This document shows positions 26,101-53,200 of a DNA stretch of 64,000 nt, piece by piece (position 1 is the first letter of the stretch; each line of letters starts with the position of its first letter). The notes under the pieces are model-generated. The model searched no databases, was not told where the DNA came from, and saw only the letters and a list, made by a program, of their open reading frames with translations. This DNA is from Polytrichum commune. Taxonomy: Eukaryota; Streptophyta; Polytrichopsida; Polytrichales; Polytrichaceae. Location of the stretch: the NCBI GenBank assembly GCA_950295325.1, contig OX485807.1, positions 24,335,666-24,399,665 of the forward strand, given 5' to 3'. Both the position numbers and the translations under genes were made by a program.

Positions 26101-26208
26101 TTGAAAAACTAGGCCATCATGCTACACACTCATTACAAAGCTACAAACTTCTAGGCTACTCCTTGACCAGATCTGACTTCCTCTAGTCCACACAGCAAAG
26201 CACATCAA

Positions 26209-28578
26209 ATGACGACACCATCAAAACACAGGCTTGAATACTCTCACACTACTCTTGCAAACGTTTTTATTTCTCAAAGTTGCACATATAATACACTCAT
26301 GCATTCAGTATATAACCCTATTCTTCTTACCAAAACCGCTATACTAACAATGTACTACATAAATCTAGTCCCTGGTACATCCAGAAATCAAATGTATGGT
26401 GTGAAGCATTGCAGTCCGCACGACGGAAAACACCGGAAGTCTCCCAACCTGCACCACCCACCAAGCAGCAAGAAACCACATCAGCAAATACACATCAAGC
26501 AGGTTGCCCAACAGTACGCAGCCCAGCTCACAACCCACCGAAGCTGGCAAGAACAAGGTATAGTCCCCGAAACCATTAGGATTTCAACTGTCTCCCTAGG
26601 TCCAGGGCAAGACAACGACAAAACTCAAAGTAAGCAGCACCAAACCAAGAAAACCCACCGAATGGAGAAGCACCTACCCACCCAACACAGCTACAAGAGA
26701 GTAGCAGACGAAGGGAAGCGACCCAGCAACAAAGGCCGCCCCCGAAAACAACGCCCCCCTCACCGAGACCTAGCAAACAACTCCAAGAGAGCACACCAAG
26801 ACAACTGCAACCGCCCGGATCGACTCACCCCCACCAACTCCAGCAACACCCCTAACACCAGGAGCGCCTGCACCAAGAAAAACGACAAAATCAAAAAGTG
26901 CAGGAACAGCACCGAATCACAGGAAGATATTCGTGACAACACCGACAGCAGCACCGACACCTGCACCAACGGCATCAGCCACAGCCACCCCAAAAACAAA
27001 AAGAAGAAAAGCAACACCTGCATCGACGGCACAGCCACCTACATCGACGGCACCAACAAAAGAACTGCCGAACACACAGCCGATACCAAGAAAAACGGGG
27101 GCCCGAACAACACCAACCCCCCTGCCTACAGACACGAAGCGGACAACACCAACGAAACCTCCAACAACAAATCAGAGGCAATAATCAACACACCCCCTGC
27201 CCCAAAACAAAGACAAGGTAAAAATCAGACCAGTTACATAGGACATCTAGGCAGAAATTTAAAGCAAGTAGCAAAGGAGCCGCCACCTAGAGAATCGCAA
27301 AGAGGGAAGACCTACCATCGAAACCCTAACAGAGGCAGCAGTATGTTGATGATGTCCACAAACCTCCATAACAGAAAACATCGACCAAAGGTAGCCTCAA
27401 ACTACCAATATAAAGGCAAGACACAAATCCCCTCTCCCACACACACATGCTTACTACTACATCATTTCTCTCTCTTCTCACCCCTAGACGCACTTAAAGC
27501 AAGCCTCCCAACACCTTGCTCAACTCACTACTTCCCCCCCAGCCTAGCAGAACATAGTTGGGTATACACACAAAGCATAGGATATTTAGAACTCTACAGT
27601 CAAAGGGCCCTGAAGCAAAGGAGGAAGGCGACCACACACACAAGGAGGAGGATCGCATACACAAGGAGGAGGATAGCCAGCCGTGGAAGGAGCGACAGAC
27701 AGATGTGGAGGAACGGGACGCCGAGGAGCAGCGGGAGCACTCTGGAGGCGCCGGGACTACTGAGGCGGAGCGGGAGCGGACAGGAGGCACCGAGACAACG
27801 GAGTCGGAGCGAGGCTACTCAACGGTTCCACACCAACGGACCTACACCCAACGGTTTCACACCAGCAAGCAACGACTTTACAACTGCACCCAAAGGCCCC
27901 CCACAAGCACAGACCAGAACCGAACTGGTCCAGCAAAGATCTCTCAAGACATACCAGGTTCACTCCAAAATAAGTTCTCTAATCAGTACATACGTTGATA
28001 ACAGTCATAAACTACATAGGCTTTCCAGTATTAGCATAAAGATTCCATACCATACTCTGTTACAAAACACGTGGTTGCTTATTTTGCAAGCATACACCAT
28101 AGTCACACAAACTAAAATGAATAGGGATGAGGCCCAAAAATGCTTGCATTTTCGAAAAAACAATAGAATCAATATAAATAGCTTGTATGTATGCTTCACA
28201 CCCAAAACCCTCTTCTATCTCACTAGCAATCTAGGTAATACACACCTCAATTGCATGCAACCACTTAGCACACATAAACAATACACTTCTATTAAACAGG
28301 CTTGGACACATTACCATAAAAAACCCACTTACTACATGCTCCCAATATATACCACCCACTACAACAAATGCATCTATATGTATGGTCATGTATATCAATC
28401 TCTTTACCATACTATCAATACCTATAGCAACACAACACACTTCTCCTTCTCAAAAGTCATACTTCACTCGGCCCCACAAATTAAATTGTGGGGAGAAGGA
28501 GACCTTGAGGCCAAAAGGAGAAACTCTATGTCAAAAAAAAAATATAGAAGCTTAACACAATTTTTTTACTTTTTCAGA
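26209..28578 (+). other. LINE 5' leader: long open frame upstream of ORF1
   Basis: The reading frame of ORF1 stays open upstream for 790 codons from an ATG at 26209. Much of this is T-poor, low-complexity, Lys/Thr/Pro/Asn/Gln-rich sequence in which stops are rare by composition. A T-richer part (about 27960-28560) is also open. A strong 3' splice-site-like sequence, TTTTTTTACTTTTTCAG, ends at 28577, one base before the ORF1 ATG. The leader may therefore be a 5' UTR with an intron rather than protein. Donor candidates include AAG/GTAAAA near 27216. A tandem ACAAGGAGGAGGAT repeat lies near 27638-27675. Confidence 0.4.
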
Positions 28579-30201
28579 ATGTCTCAACGCACCACAAACC
28601 CAAGCTCATCTCAGAGATACAAAGAGAAACTCCTAGCCCTAGAAAATGACCATGATGTAGAAATGTTTGTTACACAAAAACGCTCCTCTACCTCTCAAGT
28701 TACCACAAACCAAAAAAAGGCTAAGGGCAAATCAAACTCCGGTTTGAAACGTCCTCCCTTTTGGCTTGGTTTCCAAGCAATGAATTGGACAAATAGAGGG
28801 AAAGGACTCCCCATGGATAGCCATGCCCCGGTAGCCACCCTAGTAAAAAACGGAATGAGAGAGAAGGAGGCTAGAGAATGTCAATCCACTTTGTCTTCCT
28901 TCCCCTTTGTCATTCAAGAGGAATGGCCAAATTCAAGAGAGGACGGTAAGGAAGGCCAACATTTCAACCTCACACAAATCCCATCGGATGTTGAGGTGGA
29001 TAAGTTTGGTTTTTCATTAGATTACCAAATTGCAATCATATTTGAAATTGGGGAAAATGTGTGGGAAAAAGATACGGTAATGCCATTGGTAGAAACTAGG
29101 CTTAAAGAAATGGATATTGAGCTAGGGGATATAATAGGTGAACCCATAGCACTCATGTGTTACCACAAGTCCACAAAGTGGAGTGGGGTAATAAAACTTC
29201 ACTTGAAAACCCCCGAGATTGACGGGGTGGGGCTCCTTCAAGGACTCCGCCCATTCATTCTCAAACTAGACGAGGGTAAATTCAAAAGAGGGAAAATATG
29301 CAAAACTTACGACTCCCTAGCCTTGAATAACCTTTTGTCGGTCAAAATTACAAGTGAGGGACTAGCATCCAAGGAGTGGTACGAAATGTTTGAAAAAATT
29401 GTGGAAGAGAGTTTTGCAAGGGGAACGGAATTCGAAATAACTAGCATCCAAAAAAAGAAGGAAAACCTCTTCGCATGGGTAGTAGCCTCTTCACTGGAAC
29501 AAGCACAACGGATGAAGGAACATCAACTCACCTACAACAACGAAATTTTAGACGGGAAATTAGCCGACCAGACTCTCGCATCCAAAGACGACATTGCAAG
29601 GAAGAATGCCCTCATCCTCATCGCCAAAAATCTCAACAAGGCCAAAAGCGTTGAAGAAATCGAGAAGAGCATTGAAGAGCATATGGGACCCAAAAACGCG
29701 GTCAACTTCTTCTTCAAACGCGATGACAAAAACGGTAAGCATCTAGGCTCTTGCAACATTCAATGCCTAAATGCTATGGTATACAAAAAATTCGGCAAAA
29801 AAACGGTAAAACTACTCGGTAAATATGTAGAGTTTACCCCCCACCCTAGGAGCCTTGACGGAGCTAATGCACCTAGTGCACTTGAACTCACCAGGCTAGG
29901 GTTTAGTGATGTGAACACTGCCTTGGCAAGCACCATTGAAACACTCGAGAATATCCCCGCAAAAGCAAACCTACACAAAGACTTAATGAAAGAGATAGTT
30001 GGCATAAGAGAAGAAATTACCACAATGAAGGAAGAGCTACGAAGTGAGCAACAACAAGTTGCAGAAAAAGCCGTGGAAAAATCAACATCTACCCTCTTCA
30101 CACAAATGACACTCCTCAAGCGACAACTTGCTACCACCATGCAAGCACTAGAAACGGCTAGCTCCTCGGCCATCGAAGGCAACATGGACACGACAAACTA
30201 G
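28579..30201 (+). CDS. LINE ORF1 protein (RRM-like, coiled coil), 540 aa
   Basis: This is the likely RNA-binding/chaperone protein of the LINE. I chose the ATG at 28579 because composition changes sharply there, to balanced codon use, and a pyrimidine-tract CAG lies just upstream. The first ~70 residues are basic and Ser/Thr-rich. The central part is globular. Residues ~340-430 resemble an RRM, with LILIAKNL as an RNP2-like strand, helix SVEEIEKSIEEHMG and a possible RNP1-like strand (KHLGSCNIQCLNAM). The last ~90 residues are a predicted coiled coil (EIVGIREEITTMKEELRSEQ). The coiled coil lies after the RRM, the reverse of mammalian L1 ORF1p. There is no CCHC knuckle. The frame is intact to TAG at 30199-30201. 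Confidence 0.7.
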   Translation: MSQRTTNPSSSQRYKEKLLALENDHDVEMFVTQKRSSTSQVTTNQKKAKGKSNSGLKRPPFWLGFQAMNWTNRGKGLPMDSHAPVATLVKNGMREKEARECQSTLSSFPFVIQEEWPNSREDGKEGQHFNLTQIPSDVEVDKFGFSLDYQIAIIFEIGENVWEKDTVMPLVETRLKEMDIELGDIIGEPIALMCYHKSTKWSGVIKLHLKTPEIDGVGLLQGLRPFILKLDEGKFKRGKICKTYDSLALNNLLSVKITSEGLASKEWYEMFEKIVEESFARGTEFEITSIQKKKENLFAWVVASSLEQAQRMKEHQLTYNNEILDGKLADQTLASKDDIARKNALILIAKNLNKAKSVEEIEKSIEEHMGPKNAVNFFFKRDDKNGKHLGSCNIQCLNAMVYKKFGKKTVKLLGKYVEFTPHPRSLDGANAPSALELTRLGFSDVNTALASTIETLENIPAKANLHKDLMKEIVGIREEITTMKEELRSEQQQVAEKAVEKSTSTLFTQMTLLKRQLATTMQALETASSSAIEGNMDTTN

Positions 30202-32770
30202 CTTGGTCAAACAATGCTACGGTAATAAATAATCCATACTCACTAGTATCTATAGATACTCTAAAATATACTAAAAACCCCAAAAGTAAATACCCACTAA
30301 AACAAATAAAAAGTGTCAAACAACACTATAAAATAAAAACACAACCCCTAAACCAAAACAAAACCCAACAAAAATGGGCTCGGCCTACCGGCCTCGCCCA
30401 ACAAAAAAGAAGAATAAAACAACAACAAAATAAACCACCCCTCCAAACCCACCAAAAACAAAAAGATAAAAACATACCCACACAAAAAATATACAACACA
30501 ACCCAACAAACAGAACACACAACCAACATCAAAACCAATGAAACCCACACTCTAGGCATCCCTCATAACAATAACAATAACAAAATCACCAATAGACCAA
30601 TATACTTACAAACCAAATACAAATTCTTCCACTCATACAAAGATAAGACGATACAAAACCCAACCCAAATACATGCCAAACCAAATTGGCCACACAACAC
30701 AATGTCAAAAGGAATCTCACACCTACTAATGGCCACATACAATATAGTTGACTCCAAATCCAAACCAAATATAAAAACACATATCAAAAAGAAGGAGGAG
30801 GAAACACACTACAAAACTAATACCCAAAAACTAAACAAAGACACTACCACAGTTAAACAAAATCGGCCTACCAACTCTACCAAAATAATAATAATAATAA
30901 TAATAATAACCATAACAAAGAATAAAGGAAATAAAACAAAAAAGAAGAATAAAATAAAAACCTTCCAACTATTCAACTCATTAAAAGAACCTAACAACAT
31001 ACGAAATAAAAGAAACAACCCAAATACACAAACATACAAAAGAAATAAACAACCCAAACACATAACAAAAATCAAAACAAATAAAACTCCCACCTCGGGC
31101 ACCCCTCATAACAACCAAAATACCCAAACAACCAAGAAACCCAATAGACCAGTACACATAAGAACCAAAAAATCCTACCACTCACATAAACACAAATTAA
31201 TAAAAAAGAACCCAACATACAACGAACTAACTAGGCCACACCTCACAATAATAATAGAAGCACAACTACCAATAGCTACAAACACTATAATCTACTCTAG
31301 AAAACCCAAAATAAAAATAACACCACATACCAAAACATACAACGACAAAACAAAACACAAAAATAAAGCAAAAAATCTAAAAAAATAGCACTACCAAAAA
31401 TAAACAAGCTCGGCCTACCGGCCTCGCCAAAAAGAAAGAAGAAGATCAAGATAAAAGAAAAATAAAGAATAACAAAACCAAAACTTACCAACCATTTCAA
31501 AAACTAAACAAAACCTACAACACACCAATAAAAAGACATAAGAAAAACATAAAGACACAACAAGGATGCCAAAAAATCAATCCAAAACAACCTAAACACC
31601 TAATATACCACAAAACAAACAAAACTCTCACCAAAAATATCCCCCATCACAACAAAATCGAAACCAACAAACAAACCAACAAACCAACACACCCACAAAG
31701 TAAGTATAAATACCACCACTCATACAAAAACAAAGTGTTAACAAAGAACCCAACCCAACTACACCTCCTCCTCTTAAGTAAAAACATCAAATCTAAACCA
31801 GGACCTATGCCAAACAGACTAGAGACACACCCACGTACTCACAAAAGACACAGTAAAATTTACTTTATACCATACACAAACAAAGTCAACCCTAAATACC
31901 AACATATATCATCACAAATATCACTTATAAAACAAAACACACACCCAATATACCAAGTAACACACACTAAGAACCCAAACTTCTCTTTATATATATTTCA
32001 AAACATAATTAAACCATTAACTAACATCCACAAAGTAATCCGCAAATTTATTAAAAAATATAGAATACACAAAGACATACCTCCTCGTACAAACAACAAA
32101 AACAAACACCCTAGGACAATACACAAAAACTCTCAAAAAACTAATATCAACTCTAACCAAACACAAAAAAAAAACAAAATCACATCATATGGACAGTTAG
32201 ACCACATAAATAAAAGACACATCAATAATAAAACCCATACAAAATACCAAACACTCACCACTACAATAAAACCTAAATGGTATCAGACCACCAGACTAGG
32301 TCAAAAAAGACATATAATCACCCCACCCCACATAAACAATAAACAAGCACACTCTAGACCAACACACAAAAACACCAGACTCCCTAAAAACACCAGTAAA
32401 TCCAATAACAACACACCATACGGGACCCAACAATACACAAACAAATCTCACGCCAAAAGCAACACCCAAAAAAATCACTACTACTACCAACATCAAATAG
32501 CTACCACCAACACCAAATCTAAAATACCGGGACCTACCGGCCTCGGCCAAAATAAATATACAATTACACCACCCCACAAAAACAAAAATAACAAAAAGAT
32601 ATACACAATACCTAAAATCCATATAAAAAACATACGTAAACACAAAAATACTCAACACCAAAACCACACTTCTCACAAACCCCCTAAATCCCTCAAAAAG
32701 AACAACAAACAAAAACACCTCACTAACAAAAACAACATAACCAACATATCAAATAACCACACCTCGAAAC
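30202..32770 (+). repeat. Decayed tandem units between LINE ORF1 and ORF2
   Basis: The spacer is extremely A/C-rich. The motif CGGCCTACCGGCCTCGCC occurs at 30381 and 31411; diverged versions begin at about 30864 (CGGCCTACC) and 32530 (ACCTACCGGCCTCGGCC). A second marker, CCTCATAACAA followed by CAATAGACCA and CCACTCA.A, recurs at about 30556, 31105 and 31640. The period is ~480-560 bp. Near 32280-32600 a shorter ~240-bp duplication gives LGQ..ITPPH twice. Frames at 30702-31388 and 31735-32979 run through the array and owe their length to low T content. Confidence 0.6.
31777..31806 (+). other. Decayed 2A-like motif (upstream copy)
   Basis: In the same frame as ORF2 this segment encodes SKNIKSKPGP followed by MPNRLETHP. 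It aligns with the intact motif at 32785-32814 (CGDIETNPGP then MPNILKTHP). The flanking residues (KIYFIPYT against KTYFIPCT) also align, so the whole module was duplicated about 1 kb apart. The essential Asp, Glu and Asn of the DxExNPGP consensus are changed, so skipping is not expected. Confidence 0.6.
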
Positions 32771-32784
32771 TCTTACTACTCCTC

Positions 32785-32814
32785 TGCGGAGACATCGAAA
32801 CTAATCCGGGACCA
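32785..32814 (+). other. Canonical 2A-like ribosome-skipping motif
   Basis: The codons read CGDIETNPGP, preceded by LLLLL, and the next codon is ATG (Met). This fits the 2A consensus D(V/I)ExNPGP exactly, including the hydrophobic run common in 2A-like sequences of some animal and trypanosome non-LTR elements. In those elements 2A sits at the N-terminus of the ORF2 polyprotein and releases the upstream peptide during translation. It is in the ORF2 frame, but a TAA at 32977 now lies between it and the endonuclease. Activity is inferred, not shown. Confidence 0.8.
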
Positions 32815-35800
32815 ATGCCAAACATACTCAAAACACACCCACCGTCACACAAAAATAGGGATAAAACATACTTCATACCCTGCACAATAAAACTACACCC
32901 AGAGTACCAACACTTAGCAAAACAATTTGCTGCATGCTTAAAAACAACACACCCAAACCACATTGCCACATCTATATAACACCCACACCTCTCAAGATAT
33001 ATACAAGAAAACCAACACCACCCACCTCAACGCATATTATACGCACTCATTACCACGATAAGTCCACTACTAGAAACATGTGACCACCAACTAATACACA
33101 TACCCAACCCAGATTGGACAACAACACTATTTGAAAAAATGGCACTTCTCCAAAACCCCCCAGAGAGACACATCCAAAAACCACACCCATACACAGAATT
33201 TATAAATACCAACCAAAACCTAATTAACCCCCCCGATACCATCCACAAACAACTATATGACTTCATAAAACAAAATAATAATCCCCCAGACCTTCAGCTA
33301 CTAACAAACAAATTCCCATTCCTACCCGAAAACCTACTAATAGAATCCCTCAAATGCAACGAACCCATAACGGAATACTCACACCCACCCCCACCACCCA
33401 ATATACCACGGCCGCAAAACCAAGAAATACAAACGATCAACCATAACACATACATCATCACATGGAACGCCTCGTCCTTAAACACAGCCCTGCCAAACAT
33501 ACACAACCTAATCGAAAACACCACATCAAGCCCAGCAATCATCACAATACAAGAAACCAAACTAACTGCAACCAAATCAACAAAATATATACAAAACCTA
33601 TTCCCAGAATACAAACTAATTTTTAATAATACACATGCTTTAACAAGATGTATACAACAAAGAATACCGTATACCCCGACAAGAGGAGGACTCATCACGC
33701 TAATAAATAACAAGTATGTATACCCAGGTAATATCACCAAAATACCTACCCCAGCTGTAATTTCACCATATTTACAAATCATACAAATACAGAATACACC
33801 ACTACAACCATGGCTAATACTACACATGTATATGCCTTCCCACTTAGAAGATATCCAATACATCACAACAATTCAACAACAAATAACGCAACAAATCATG
33901 ACACATCCAAACCACTCTTACATACTATGCGGTGACTTCAACAGAGACATAGCCCTTATAGGGAGACATAATGGATCTAACACAACACCCCCACAAGCAG
34001 AAGACATAGAATGGCGTACATTCACAGATACCCTAAACTTAACATACATCCCAACAAATAGCACATTTACCAGACAAGGAGGACAAAACTATACTCAAAC
34101 AAGTTTAATTGATGGATATTATATCCAAACACCCAATAATACACCATATACTTCAAACACAAACCACGACTACAACCTAAACTCAGATCACTCACCAGTC
34201 ACACTACTGATACCACCCAACACACTAATAGCCCGCCCCATACAACCAAAAATAAACAAACCACCAAGGATTCTAAATCCCATTCCACAAGAGAACATTG
34301 AAAAACTCAAAACACTATTATTCGAAGAAAACTCCCTCCAAATAAATGAACTCACCACAATATTAATGAATGAACACTTAACAGACAACCAATGGCAAGC
34401 ATCTTGCACCAAATTTGACCATTTAATACAACAAATATCAGAAAAAACCCAAGAAACTTGCAGCGCCCCCCCCCCCCTACCTTCACTAACACACCGCACA
34501 TCTCAACAAGGAGGATTCCTACCAAGAAAACTACAAAAACAATGGAAAAAACACTTGTCTACATACCACCTAATAAGAAAAGCAATTTACATTACAAAAA
34601 ACACACCACTATGGCAAAATCATCCAATAATAGAAGAACTAAAAAACCATAACTACATTACCATCCCGCCACCACCTCACCCAGATACAAACCCACATGA
34701 ATGGATTAAAACATTAGCAGAACTAGCCAAAACCGCAAACAAACAAGCAAGAAAAATTACAACTAAATACACACAAGAATGTGTCAAAAAAGCCATCGCG
34801 AAATACATACAACTATACGAAAAAAGCCCAAAATAAATAAATAACAAAGTTTTCAAAAACCAAGACACACCACCGTTAGACTGCATTAGAGATAGAAACA
34901 ACAACATACTAACCAGCCCAGAAGACATAGCAGACGAAATACATACACAACAATCAATTAGTAACAAACCTACAGTTCCAACATGCTATTACCAACCAGA
35001 ACACACAAACAATTGTACATGTGGTGTTAAACAATACCCATGGCATGACCTTGATGGATTTATAATAAATACAAGAGGAGACCCACAAATACCATTATAT
35101 AAGTACTTCGACCAAGAAACATACGACTTATGTTTAAAACACCTTTCCAACAATAAAGCACCAGGCCCAGACAGAATTCCAAATTCAATTCTAAAAAATA
35201 TACCTGACAAATTTCATAAAATGCTACTCCTATTTTTCACACATTGCTACAAACAAAAAAAAATACCAGCATCATGGAAAACAAGTCTAACCATACTTTT
35301 ATACAAAAAAGGAGACCCATCACTACTAACAAACCACAGACCCATAGCACTTGCAAATACAATCTATAAACTATTCACCAGCACACTAACGCTAATACTA
35401 TCAGCATATGGTGAAAAATACCAAATACTGCACGACAGTCAAGAAGGATTCAGAGCAGAAAAAAGCACATCTCGACAACTACAACTACTCATAGCAGCCT
35501 TGGAAGATGCTAGATTTACAAACCAAAACATATACCTCCTATACATAGATTTCAAAAATGCATTCGGCTCCCTTGACCACGCTAGACTATTAGCTATAAT
35601 GAAAGACCTGGGCTACCCACTAGATGCAGTAACACTAATTGAAAATATCTACGCACACTCTACTACTATATTTACCGGCGAACACTTTGGCAAAACAAAA
35701 CCAATACCCATTCAAAGAGGTACCATCCAAGGCGACACCCTAAGTCCATACTTATTTCTAATATTTCTTGAACCACTACTTAGATGGCTACAAAGAGGCA

Positions 35801-38800
35801 AAAACGGGTACACATTCGGCACATCAAAATTAACCATTAGCTCTGCAGCTTACGCAGATGACCTCGCCGCAATAACAAACAATCTCCAATCGATACAAAC
35901 ACAACTAAACAAACTAGATAAATTCTGTGAATGGGCGGGAATGGACTTAGGTGTATAAAAATGTGCCATTACAGGTTGTCCCAACAAATCCAAACTAAAC
36001 CCTGAAAATTTCAAAAACCAAATACAAAATCACAACATAGCTTATAGAAACCAACTAATTCCCGTTCTACACCAAAACGAACCATATGTATATCTAGGCA
36101 TTCAACTAGTACCCTCACTAAAATGGAAACTCCAAACACACATCACCACAAATAAAATAATTCACCAATGCAAACAACTAACCAAATGTCCTGCCACAAT
36201 TAAACAGAAAATCAGTATGGTCGACACAGTCATCAGAGCAGGTATAGCATACAATTTCTATGCAGTTCCATACTCACTCCCGACTATAAAAAAACTAGAT
36301 AAAAAATTTATAGGAATCCAAAAAACAATATGCGGACTACCAAAATGCACAGCAAATGTAATAACACAATTACCCCACGAACTCTTTGGCCTAGAGGCCT
36401 TCTTATTAAAAAACGCATACTTAAGATGCATCGGCGAACAACTAAGAAACGCACTTAACGACCAAGGAAGACTAGGAACAATATATAAAGGACTCATACA
36501 CCACATACTAGCTAAGTACGGCGGCGCAGAAGAAATCCCAAGAATAACACAACATGATTGCATCAGATCACCGACTATATGTACATTATTCCTCCTAAAA
36601 ACTGCCGGAGGAATTCACCTCAAAAGCACAAATGAAAACTTCCTACTACATGCAACAGAGTTAGAACAAGAATGGCGTACACAAGCTACAAATGAACTCC
36701 CACATCTCAACCCTGACCTATCACTCAAACTCCTACATAAACTATTAATCCACAACATCTACAAAATACAACACATCACCCTCCCCAACGGCACAACCCT
36801 TATGACACCAGACGACTTCAAAACCTACTATAAAGCACCATCCAAATTAGAAAAGAGCGCACTTCAAATAGCCGAACAATTGTTTTGTCACCTAAGTTGC
36901 ACACCAAACTGCCCAAATCCATGTACAAGACACCCACCCGCCCGTACGCTTAAACCAAAATACATTTCAAACAACCAACACTTAATACCAAGAGCACCAA
37001 ACAATCCACCCCAACCCCCAAACCCACAGCAACAACTCCACCCAAACCCACCCCAAAACGTAAAAAACAACCCCATAAAATTCAACATACACATAATAAT
37101 AGACCATAAAACAAACATCATAAAAGACAAATACAAAATAACAAAGAAATTCACCACATACTTATGTCAATGGACTCTCGAAAACAATATTATATACCAC
37201 AAATGGATACCACAAAGAGAACTCTTCCCTTTCAACCACCCAACAGTCATCGCGCATAACCTTACACTACTCACAGATTACTATACAAAACTACAACATG
37301 CACATTTTAAAACAATTTTGAATACACATTTTATCCCTGAACAAAATAGAGATACAAGATTCATCCCCCCAACCACGACTATAGCACTCACACAAATATT
37401 CATACACGAGTGTAACCCAGAAAAAGACATCCTTACCAATAAGGATACCATACAAATACATAATGAGCAAACCCACATATACGAGGATACTGGGAGACAC
37501 CTTATCAGCATACCAACAACCAGATTAAATTGGCTATGGCAACAATACAATAAAGCAAGATACAACTCACATGGACTAGTACCACAAACACAAACATTTG
37601 AAAAAGAAATAGTATGGCTCTACCAAAGATACAAAAGTAAAATCCCCAAAAATGGCTCAACAAAAACAACACTACATACCTTGCCAACAAATATAATAGA
37701 CTCCCTCATAAACACTTTCAATATCTCACACTCCTATTTTTCCTCACCAGTAACATGCTCAACACAAATTTCAAAATTCTACTCCCCTTTCGCAAGAGAC
37801 AAAGTCTTCGGAGCACTAGGAACCGCTTTCCAATATAAATGGAAAGGGATAGGCTACGCTCATCCACATAATGAAGAAACAGTCCAACAAGCAATCCACT
37901 GGGCGAGATTAGCAGCCAAAAATGACCCAAACACCATCACTATAGTAGTAATACCACACATAAACTGGTACCAAGACCCCTCACCGTATATTGGACCATT
38001 CCCAGATACACACGTCATCACCCACTTTGCTGCAGACACAATCACATATGAAGAACCAACAATCCCCCAAGACAGACAAAAACCGAAAACAGAGCCACTT
38101 GCAATACAAATCTTATGTATACACCGTCAAAACCAAAATATTGGGACATCCCACCAAATGGATACACTCAAAACAATACTTGAAAACCTACAAATCCCAC
38201 AATACTACCTCCATAACGCCCCACCCACCCCGCATAACACACCAATCAACAAAAGTAAAAAATGGAACAAACTCATATACCCGCCCGCAACCTACCAAAG
38301 CACACTTAACACACCATCACTTCCAAACTTTGTAACAAACACCACAATCAAATTTCAACCACAACACTGCTACTATACTGATGGCTCCTTCATACCTCCC
38401 ACCCAAAAAACTAATAGACATTGGAAAAAAGAAAAAGCCGGATACGGAATATACAACTCAACCAAGATAGACATACAAATCTTGAAAAGACTACCAGGGC
38501 TACAAACATGCTTCCGAGCAGAACTAATGGCCATCCACAAAACACTCAAATTAATATCTACTAAATACCCAAACGAACCTGCACATATATTTACAGATTG
38601 CCTCAATTGCCTATATAACCTAAACACACACATCAAACACCCTACCATGCACAATAACCATGCAGACAAAACAATCTTAACAAACATGGTAGAAATATTA
38701 AAAACCCGCACCCAACCCACCACATTTCACAAAGTCAAAGCACACATTAACATTGCAGGAAATGAACAAGCAGACAAACTTGCAAAAATTGGAACCAGAA

Positions 38801-50257: not shown

Positions 50258-53200
50258 TCAAAAGGGAATTTCTAAACTTTTGCCTAATTCTGATCTGCCT
50301 AATGCTAATCTGCCTAAGGCTAAACTAAGTGGTGCGGTGCTTCTTCGAAGCCGTCCCGTCCTTGGATTGACTCGCAGGCCCGCTGTGGCGGAAGAGCCTC
50401 CTCCAGGGGTCAAAAGTCGTCGCTCCTGCAACCTCAAAAATACCCTCCTCATGTTTGGGGAGGGGGCGATCTCTTCTTCGGAATCGTTTGTCGCGGGCGG
50501 ATCCTCTCCTGATCCGTCTCCCGATCCGGATCGCGCTGCACCGAAAACATTCTTCTCCTTCCGGGACCTCTGGCCAGGTGAGGGGTCACTTCCAGTGGTC
50601 CGCTCCTTGTTCCGGCCACATGAGACAGAAGTCGCCCGGGGATCCCTCGTGGACATCGCTTGTGAGGGCGGAGGAACCCACGGCTCCACTATCATACAAT
50701 CAAGAGCGGGAGCTGGCGAAACCTGCGACACCGGTGCCTTACCCCTATCCGGAGTCTTCATCCGATCCGGCGTCCTCATCCTTTCCGGAGTTCTGGCCCT
50801 CTCCAGCGTTCGGGACCGCCTTGACGCCCTGCCCTGACCCGGATTCGGTGATTGTCCACGTCCGGACCTGGTTGACCGTTCTGTACTTTTCCGTTGAACT
50901 AGGGATGAGCGGGTTTGTTCCGGAACAAGAGTCTTCTCTCGATCCAGAAATCTTCCGGATTCCAGTGGCTGGGAAGTACCCGCTGGCTGACTGGGCCCCG
51001 CACCCGCCTGTGAGGCCGGAACTAGTTCCACCTCCCCAATAACCTCGTACAGAGTGCTCGTCAGAGATCCGGGTGGACCCGGATTGTCGTCCAACTTTTT
51101 TGGTTTTCCATTGTCATTTTAGAATTAAGTGTGAATAGGGTAGGACAATAGCCTGTTATTATCAAGCTAGAACACAAAGTAGAGGCTATTATCTCGAGAT
51201 TTCAGAAACTTGGGATTGTAAGGGCTATAGTCTGGCTTCGGGGGAGGTAGTCCCTGGATTCTCGTAGTAAAAGTATATAGCCTGAACCTCACTTGAGAGA
51301 ACTACCACTCTCTTCTTTGGCGATTTGATATGCTATTGTCTTTGATGAATATAATTCTATTCGGCCATTGTGCCATCATCTATTATCTTGAGTAAGGATT
51401 GTGTCCAGAGATAATTGGATTTGTTTTGCAATGTCCATGATCGGATTCTTGAGTGATCAGAACCTTTCAAGGTTTCTTTGAATTTGTATGGCAAGGATCC
51501 ATTGTCTGTTGTGAGAACAGTGATTGTTAAAGGGTCGTTGAAACCTCCTTGTCTGTGTTAAAGAGAGCTTTCCATTGTCTATCATTCAACTGTGTATCGG
51601 TGGCAGGTATATTTGAGAATTCTATTGACTAATTGTGTAACCAGTCAAGAAGGAAATTACAGAGTTGAACCAGGAGGGATTCCTGAGTGGACTTACTTTG
51701 AAAAGTTTCCTTGGTCGATAATCTGGTGTGAGATTTGACCTGTTTAAAGTCCGAGTAGAAGAGCTCAGAGGAGGATTGCAAGGTCCATTCGGAAGTGAAT
51801 TATTAACTCGGCAATCAACTTTATTGTGCACCAGATTATGTCTGTTGTCTGCAATCCAATTTAGTTCCTGCCTCACAGGGAAAGTGAGAGGTCGTTATTG
51901 TCTGCTATAGTCTGAGATGTGGGCCTGTTAAAGGGAGTACAAGCAAATTAGAATGCTTGTGCTGATTTGAGGACGAGGTTGTTTGAGTGATCAACCGAAT
52001 TGTGAAAGCACTAAAAGATCAAATTTGATTGTGAATCACTGTGCCGAAGAAGAGCAAAGTCTGGAATCTAGTTTTCACGCGAACAAAGAGATTGTAAGTT
52101 ATTGTTGTTGTTTTCGCCATAGTCTGGAGAGAAACCCGATTGAAGAAAGCAGAAAGTCGGACAATCGCCGGAGTGCTGGTGCCGGTGCCGGTGCCGGTGA
52201 TTTTGATGTTGTGTGGTCAATAGTCTCAACCAAAGTCTATACCACAGCCTACCCTTTGAAGGCGAAGCGGCTCTCTGGAGTTGCCATTTGGAGACTGTTG
52301 AGGAGCTCTGGTGGAGCCGAAAGGACAGAAGACCCAGTCCATTGCCTGTGGAGTCTCCTGGAGCCGGGAGTGATCCAGCCGAACATCAATAGACTTAACC
52401 TTTACAAGGTGGTAACTTCTGTGTTGAGTTAATTGACAAATAAATAAAGATTAATCACCTAACTCTCATAAGGATAATCAAATGATTAATTATTGAATTC
52501 CATTATGAATTATTCACTTGCTCGATTAAGGGTGACATCAGAGAGTGATGTTGCAATTGCAACAAGGCAATGAGCTTATTTGTAGCGGTGGCAAGGTATG
52601 TATCGAAAAGACAATTGTCGGACTGCCGCATTAATGGAATTATTTAACTAAGGAATACATGCCAACCTTGTAAGGATTACTGACGGACATTTCAATTTAC
52701 ATTAAAAGGATTAATAAAGGAAAAGACCATGGGTTTCTCCAGAGGGCCCTCGCCTCTGGAATTAGACGACAAATTGGTACTTCAAATACATGACAATTGA
52801 CTATGGCTGTGCCTATGCTTGTGCACCGCACTAATGTCTACATTAAATGAACCCACTACCAGACTATTGTTTGGGAAAATAGAGTGAGGAGAGTGACTGT
52901 TGTCATTACATGTACTGCTATTGAGAGATACATTAACTTTTATTACACCTTTCTAATCTAAATGTTAACTCCAAATCTGAAATGAAGTGTAATAAACCAA
53001 TCATTTACCTAATCAAACCTATTTGAGACACCTAGATATCATCACAATCACCTTTTAAGTCTTCCCTGAGTGTTTCCCTGGGTTTTATTTGTAGCCAAAA
53101 AACTAACTACACGGATAGAGCATCCGCCTGGGGGTATCACCCGGCAGCAACTTCTGGATCTCCTTGAGCAGATCCTTCATCGAGCGGGAGTACTTTACCA

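Follow-up and report, generated by a model that had tools for sequence, protein, structure and literature searches.

A probable 2A (StopGo) peptide ahead of the replication enzyme in a high-copy, non-L1 LINE family of a moss-like plant

LINEs that carry 2A peptides include L1Tc/ingi elements and members of the CR1, L2, Rex1, and Crack clades, and in the animal set the 2A accompanied loss of ORF1. The source papers for these AP-endonuclease LINEs of animals and trypanosomes are reportedly Odon 2013 and Heras 2006. Outside viruses, 2A (StopGo) is described as rare, and the available text of a recent study records no use of it in plant viruses (Li et al. 2026, PMC12846837). That study widens the StopGo core to (D/G/C/N)(V/I)ExNPGP and defines a LLLLSG-like class upstream of StopGo sequences with D at position 12; in the same partial text, H at position 14 is active, Q gives 26–56% in other contexts, and K is not among the active variants given. 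2A works in plant cells (Nicotiana; Roulston 2016, PMC4981915, in part), and some picornaviruses contain several 2A-NPGP sequences ∼50–150 aa apart (Luke 2024, PMC11512398, in part). According to the accessible portion of a review of plant elements, plant LINEs comprise L1 and RTE only (PMC9033089). In the open-access literature, a scope that leaves out Odon 2013, Heras 2006, Luke 2014, and Rao 2025, we found no plant LINE with a 2A; Rao 2025, as cited in the available text of PMC12846837, is a survey of viral and cellular proteomes that may include plants.

The element described here lies in a 64,000-nt stretch of DNA (the window) and belongs to a family with hundreds of members in the genome of a moss-like plant. 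Like the 2A LINEs of animals and trypanosomes, it combines an AP endonuclease with a reverse transcriptase (RT) and carries the 2A in frame, upstream of the endonuclease; unlike them, the family has a plant host, a separate ORF1, a long and apparently translated leader, tandem 2As, and a PCIF1-like domain. As in the multi-2A picornaviruses, several 2As can share a frame, here 62–267 codons apart, but the carrier is a retrotransposon and the repeated units are duplicates of the 2A plus part of the domain behind it. The plant L1 LINEs of the same genome (L004, L065, L066, and L068) also encode an AP endonuclease and an RT. Unlike the 2A family, three of them (L004, L065, and L066, of which L004 and L066 look alike) have no sense-strand NPGP, and on these three loci we reject the idea that LINEs of this genome generally carry the motif. 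We class L004 as an L1-type LINE (RT 27–29% identical, zf-RVT in ORF2, DUF4283 in ORF1), and the RT of L068 is nearest L1.

In the window, CGDIETNPGP occupies positions 32785–32814 of the + strand, with LLLLL before it (32770–32784) and Met after it (32815–32817), just as the first-pass annotation had read the letters. The pattern D-I-E-x-NPGP occurs once in the six frames of the 64 kb. A second NPGP, on the minus strand near 51085, is bare, lacks D-I-E, and has stops near it in frame; we take it as chance. The core octapeptide DIETNPGP (32791–32814) closes a 2A/StopGo-like peptide of 22 codons (32749–32814) and agrees with the widened core, and the hexapeptide LLLLCG in front of it fits, by eye against the available text of PMC12846837, the LLLLSG-like upstream class. 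A Pfam search of the window places four domains in the 2A frame on the same strand: an AP-type endonuclease (33457–34200; PF03372 at 33457–34014 and PF14529 at 33814–34200, both above the Pfam cut-off), an RT (PF00078, 35308–35946, E = 1.5e-25), a PCIF1-like domain (PF12237, 37567–37959, 45.1 bits against a cut-off of 31.1), and an RNase H (PF00075, 38368–38793, E = 9.5e-14). The first-pass annotation had put the motif in frame with the endonuclease, RT, and RNase H and had called the element a LINE. Both assignments stand: endonuclease and RT score above their Pfam cut-offs and share one ORF, as in LINEs (in L001 the endonuclease falls just below the cut-off). The frame of the window copy is broken by three in-frame stops (32977–32979, 34834–34836, and 35956–35958), and this copy is dead.

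The PCIF1-like domain sits between the RT and the RNase H of the LINE; in L001 it scores below the cut-off. The catalytic motif of the PCIF1 adenine methyltransferase is NPPF. It is absent from the window domain, for which a weak alignment to 6irv (E = 0.0021) has AHPH in the corresponding column. Directly behind the 2A, the family alignment delimits a conserved post-2A domain of ∼110 aa (32815–33144, +), which scores 149.6 bits with its HMM at 32815 and contains the first of the three stops.

Upstream on the + strand, the conserved part of ORF1 (28267–30201) lies within a stop-to-stop frame at 26167–30201 and resembles, by blastp, the ORF1 of L054 (46% over 656 aa), L057, L002, and L058. The window ORF1 (29002–30198) has no Pfam domain at E ≤ 0.01, and the ORF1s of L054, L057, and L058 gave nothing above the Pfam cut-off. 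The spacer, or leader, between ORF1 and the 2A (30162–32784, +) overlaps the end of ORF1 in its first part and is similar to the spacers of L010, L054, L057, and L058. It is open in one frame from 30162 to 31388 and continues in the 2A frame from 31381, so that its single frame change falls at 31381–31388. Within it lies a degenerate upstream 2A copy (LLLLSKNIKSKPGP, 31741–31806, +), followed from 31807 by a second, decayed post-2A domain (33.5–38 bits with the post-2A HMM).

The host is photosynthetic and likely moss-like. A profile search of the genome returned 58 chlorophyll a/b-binding matches; 14 such genes, with an identical best score, lie within 95 kb (C5:1751760–1846160) on C5, the contig of the window. 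An Lhca3-like protein scored 430–440 bits against 7xqp, 8htu, 7ksq, and 6l35, which we take to be Physcomitrium (moss) photosystem I structures, as well as 429 against 9lut, 395 against 9gbi, and ≤395 against others. An Lhcb protein scored best with 9vfj_2, a long multi-domain chain, and then with 8htu and 7xqp. These matches bear out the plant genome proposed from the letters, and no contamination was seen: relatives anchored by the PCIF1-like domain (see below) occur on contigs C1–C7 and C24.

Judged by sequence comparison with R2 and L1 as the two references, the RT of the 2A family is nearer to R2 than to L1 and does not belong to the L1 clade. Two members scored 105 and 98 bits with R2 against 62 and 56 with L1, and L068 of the same genome scored 102 with L1 against 61 with R2. 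Because the 2A family has an AP endonuclease, it is not R2 either. The most frequent long RT frames of the genome (1551 and 1539 aa) belong to gag-bearing LTR elements (L063, L064, and L067) and were discarded as candidates.

A DNA pattern for D(I/M/V)ExNPGP matched 273 times in the 408-Mb genome and 0 times when reversed; with position 14 left free, the counts were 460 and 5. These counts rule out a chance origin of the motif. A homologous post-2A peptide stands directly behind NPGP in all 20 motif loci read, which were chosen for differing motif letters from the 100 matches listed. There are two types, the M-type (NPGP-MPNIL...) and the L-type (NPGP-LSTILKNLP...), with post-2A domains alignable over ∼110 aa; Q or H is frequent at position 14 of the L-type. 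Sense-strand NPGP motifs were also present in five of the six loci taken from the RT list (L001, L002, L003, L005, and L006), the sixth being L004. No relatives of the element were confirmed in viral_contigs.

We then used the PCIF1-like domain as an anchor, so that copies were not selected by the motif. The genome holds 697 PCIF1-like candidates, of which 150 were scored. Contigs C1 and C2 account for 68 of the scored loci, and leaving out three that fall outside the range of the motif matches listed gives 65. Of these, 37 have a strict motif upstream of the PCIF1 match and on its strand (frames were checked in those read), and in 30 the two are 4,741–4,802 bp apart. For the remaining 28 we inspected the position where the motif should stand, in 27 cases within a 1.2-kb stretch that a more distant 2A would escape. 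In twelve, a variant motif precedes the post-2A domain: nine keep NPGP (DIKPNPGP twice, DIHPNPGP three times, and DIKTNPGP, DIRPNPGP, NIEPNPGP, and AIETNPGP once each) and three have lost it (NRGP in L037, KPGP in L048, and NPRP in L039). This part of ORF2 is missing from the other 16: homology is absent there in 15, and one starts only at residue 48 of the post-2A domain, a pattern that truncation would produce. Of the 49 PCIF1-anchored sites with the ORF2 start present, 46 retain NPGP and 37 the strict core.

The motif is in frame and conserved in relatives; no absence was seen among the long-frame copies in a check, suggested by the first-pass annotation, for its loss from intact members. 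The consensus given in that annotation, DxExNPGP, describes the window octapeptide and the 37 strict sites but fails in one long-frame subfamily (L056/L058, and L032), where the core is DIKPNPGP, with K at position 14, and two copies are 99.7% alike. Either K at position 14 works in L056/L058 or the 2A is dispensable for this subfamily.

Substitution patterns place the onset of selection at the 2A. We compared 15 loci, drawn from the PCIF1-anchored set and the window and leaving out the near-duplicates L047, L055, and L058 and the edge case L039, a sample in which variant motifs are over-represented. The octapeptide has a pN/pS of 0.19 (bootstrap over loci 0.14–0.26) and the hexapeptide before it 0.38. 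Further upstream, pN/pS is 0.68 at codons −22 to −15 and 0.96 at −40 to −23, the latter stretch being compared ungapped, so that misalignment may push it towards 1; in the first two 20-codon blocks after the 2A it is 0.26 and 0.38. Within the motif, residues stay and synonymous codons vary. Relative to L054, six diverged copies, five of which had been found through the motif, gave pN/pS of 0.5–1.0 in the leader (−101 to −33) and 0.16–0.25 after the 2A. Over the 22 codons of the 2A itself, five of the six gave 0.05–0.30 and L011 gave 0.6, with few changes and four gapped codons. The StopGo footprint is where selection starts, and there is little constraint upstream. A nearly unconstrained leader, a strong footprint, and strong constraint again after it are what a mechanism of release at the 2A predicts.

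The leader itself can be followed in five long-frame copies, L054, L055, L056, L057, and L058, whose PCIF1-linked frames span 2,625–2,924 codons. From the frame opening to the 2A end they measure 285, 285, 323, 586, and 584 codons, respectively, and the earlier proposal that the 2A cuts off a short N-terminal peptide does not survive: the upstream piece is long. From the ORF1 stop to the 2A, four copies are free of stops and L056 contains one, against 16–26 expected under a Markov model and 19–40 in the other two frames of the same spacers; the selection of these five for long frames biases the sample towards this result. Six further loci in the stop count have boundaries set by the open frame and are uninformative. 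The window has 39 stops in the 2A frame over its whole spacer against 46.0 expected (P = 0.16), a chance level because its frame changes within the spacer.

At the junction, the ORF2 frame of the five long-frame copies overlaps the end of ORF1 by 22–88 nt, in another frame. In L056 and L058 the ORF1 stop is overlapped by an in-frame ATG; past the stop, L054 and L055 have their first ATG in frame (at +123) and L057 has it out of frame. A stop precedes the first 2A by ≤30 codons in L001 and L005, with no Met between. The phase from ORF1 to ORF2 is −1 in L054, L055, L057, and the window and +1 in L056 and L058. Since the phase differs between lineages, we reject fixed-phase frameshifting from ORF1 into ORF2 and regard reinitiation as likelier.

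The single motif upstream of the endonuclease that the first-pass annotation described holds for the window's own 2A, but some elements have two to four. Two motifs share one open frame in L001 and L003, and in L022, where the second ends in NPGA; L018 has four in one open frame (one of them RDIELNPGP), and L027 and L051 have two with no stop between. In L002, L046, and L047, two motifs lie in different frames. Neighbouring 2As are spaced by a multiple of three in 15 of 16 cases, or 13 of 14 distinct spacings (binomial P = 6e-6), in 12 clusters on C1 chosen by eye among the matches listed and one pair on C2. L018 is a mosaic: three L-type 2As stand in one frame, and the fourth 2A leads into an M-type ORF2.

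The spacer also contains a hairpin-like repeat of 24–26 nt, recognized by sequence repetition and fold, at 30373–30402, ∼31403–31432, and 32522–32551 (+), with a degenerate copy at ∼30846–30890. It is G+C-rich within an A/C-rich spacer, lies 255–300 nt upstream of the 2A in many M-type copies, and has no fixed frame; it was not seen in the L-type loci read. Its exact 18-mer occurs 292 times in the genome and 0 times as the reversed pattern. The window hairpin folds well and the inner stem is visible in most copies. We do not regard an RNA structure as demonstrated: covariation does not exceed that of shuffles (616 of 2000 reach the paired fraction and 543 of 2000 the double changes), and between 25000 and 41000 of the window no Rfam family reaches its gathering score.

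We read the motif, with a probability of about 0.85, as a 2A (StopGo) recoding peptide of ORF2 in a non-L1 AP-endonuclease LINE family of a moss-like plant, one that would free the enzyme from a fast-evolving translated leader. It stands in frame between two parts that appear to be translated, the post-2A domain and ORF2 downstream and, in four of the five long-frame copies, an open spacer upstream. Ribosomes would move into the ORF2 frame where ORF1 ends or shortly beyond, probably by termination-reinitiation, and would translate the long, fast-evolving spacer (285–586 codons to the 2A end in long-frame copies). Skipping would release the leader at NPG/P, and the EN-RT-PCIF1-RNase H protein would then be made with an N-terminal Pro. 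The benefit may be leader removal itself: with a 2A in place, the spacer would be free to vary, to undergo duplication, and to host RNA elements while the enzyme N-terminus stays unaltered.

Two other readings retain the conservation of the motif and dispense with skipping. ORF2 could start at the Met directly after NPGP in M-type elements, leaving the 2A-like letters untranslated; such a Met does follow NPGP in the M-type loci read, and upstream Met codons occur at no single fixed place. The conservation ahead of this Met, however, is of amino acids rather than bases, as the low octapeptide pN/pS and the many synonymous changes attest, L-type elements have Leu or Pro instead of Met after NPGP, and the upstream frame is stop-free in four of the five long-frame copies; we hold this start to be very improbable. 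The motif could also be a conserved N-terminal peptide of the ORF2 protein, serving targeting or folding, that resembles a 2A and does not skip. The Leu-rich stretch ahead of it would suit such a role, and certain echinoderm 2As also act as signal sequences (PMC4981915, in part). Against this stand a conserved footprint that coincides with the StopGo hexapeptide and octapeptide and the two to four motif copies that some elements carry in one frame, inside the polyprotein, and we consider a peptide of this kind improbable. Chance or contamination, for which the decayed state of the window copy is the only point in favour, has a negligible probability given the reversed-pattern counts, the spread of PCIF1-anchored relatives over eight contigs, and the chlorophyll-binding genes on the window contig.

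Beyond the recoding peptide itself, we tentatively conjecture, at somewhat below even odds, that ribosomes read through and shed: they would cross a near-freely evolving spacer with repeated RNA-like elements, and one to four 2As would strip this spacer from the replication enzyme. The 2A would then free the intergenic region from protein constraint, and 2A cassettes would multiply and move between subfamilies, as L018 may illustrate.

A high-copy plant element that keeps StopGo under selection would represent a natural use of this peptide in a plant lineage. At position 14 the family offers E, K, H, Q, and R as naturally occurring residues for tests on plant ribosomes. Moreover, two-ORF LINEs with and without a 2A share one genome here, so that the role of the 2A for a retrotransposon becomes testable.
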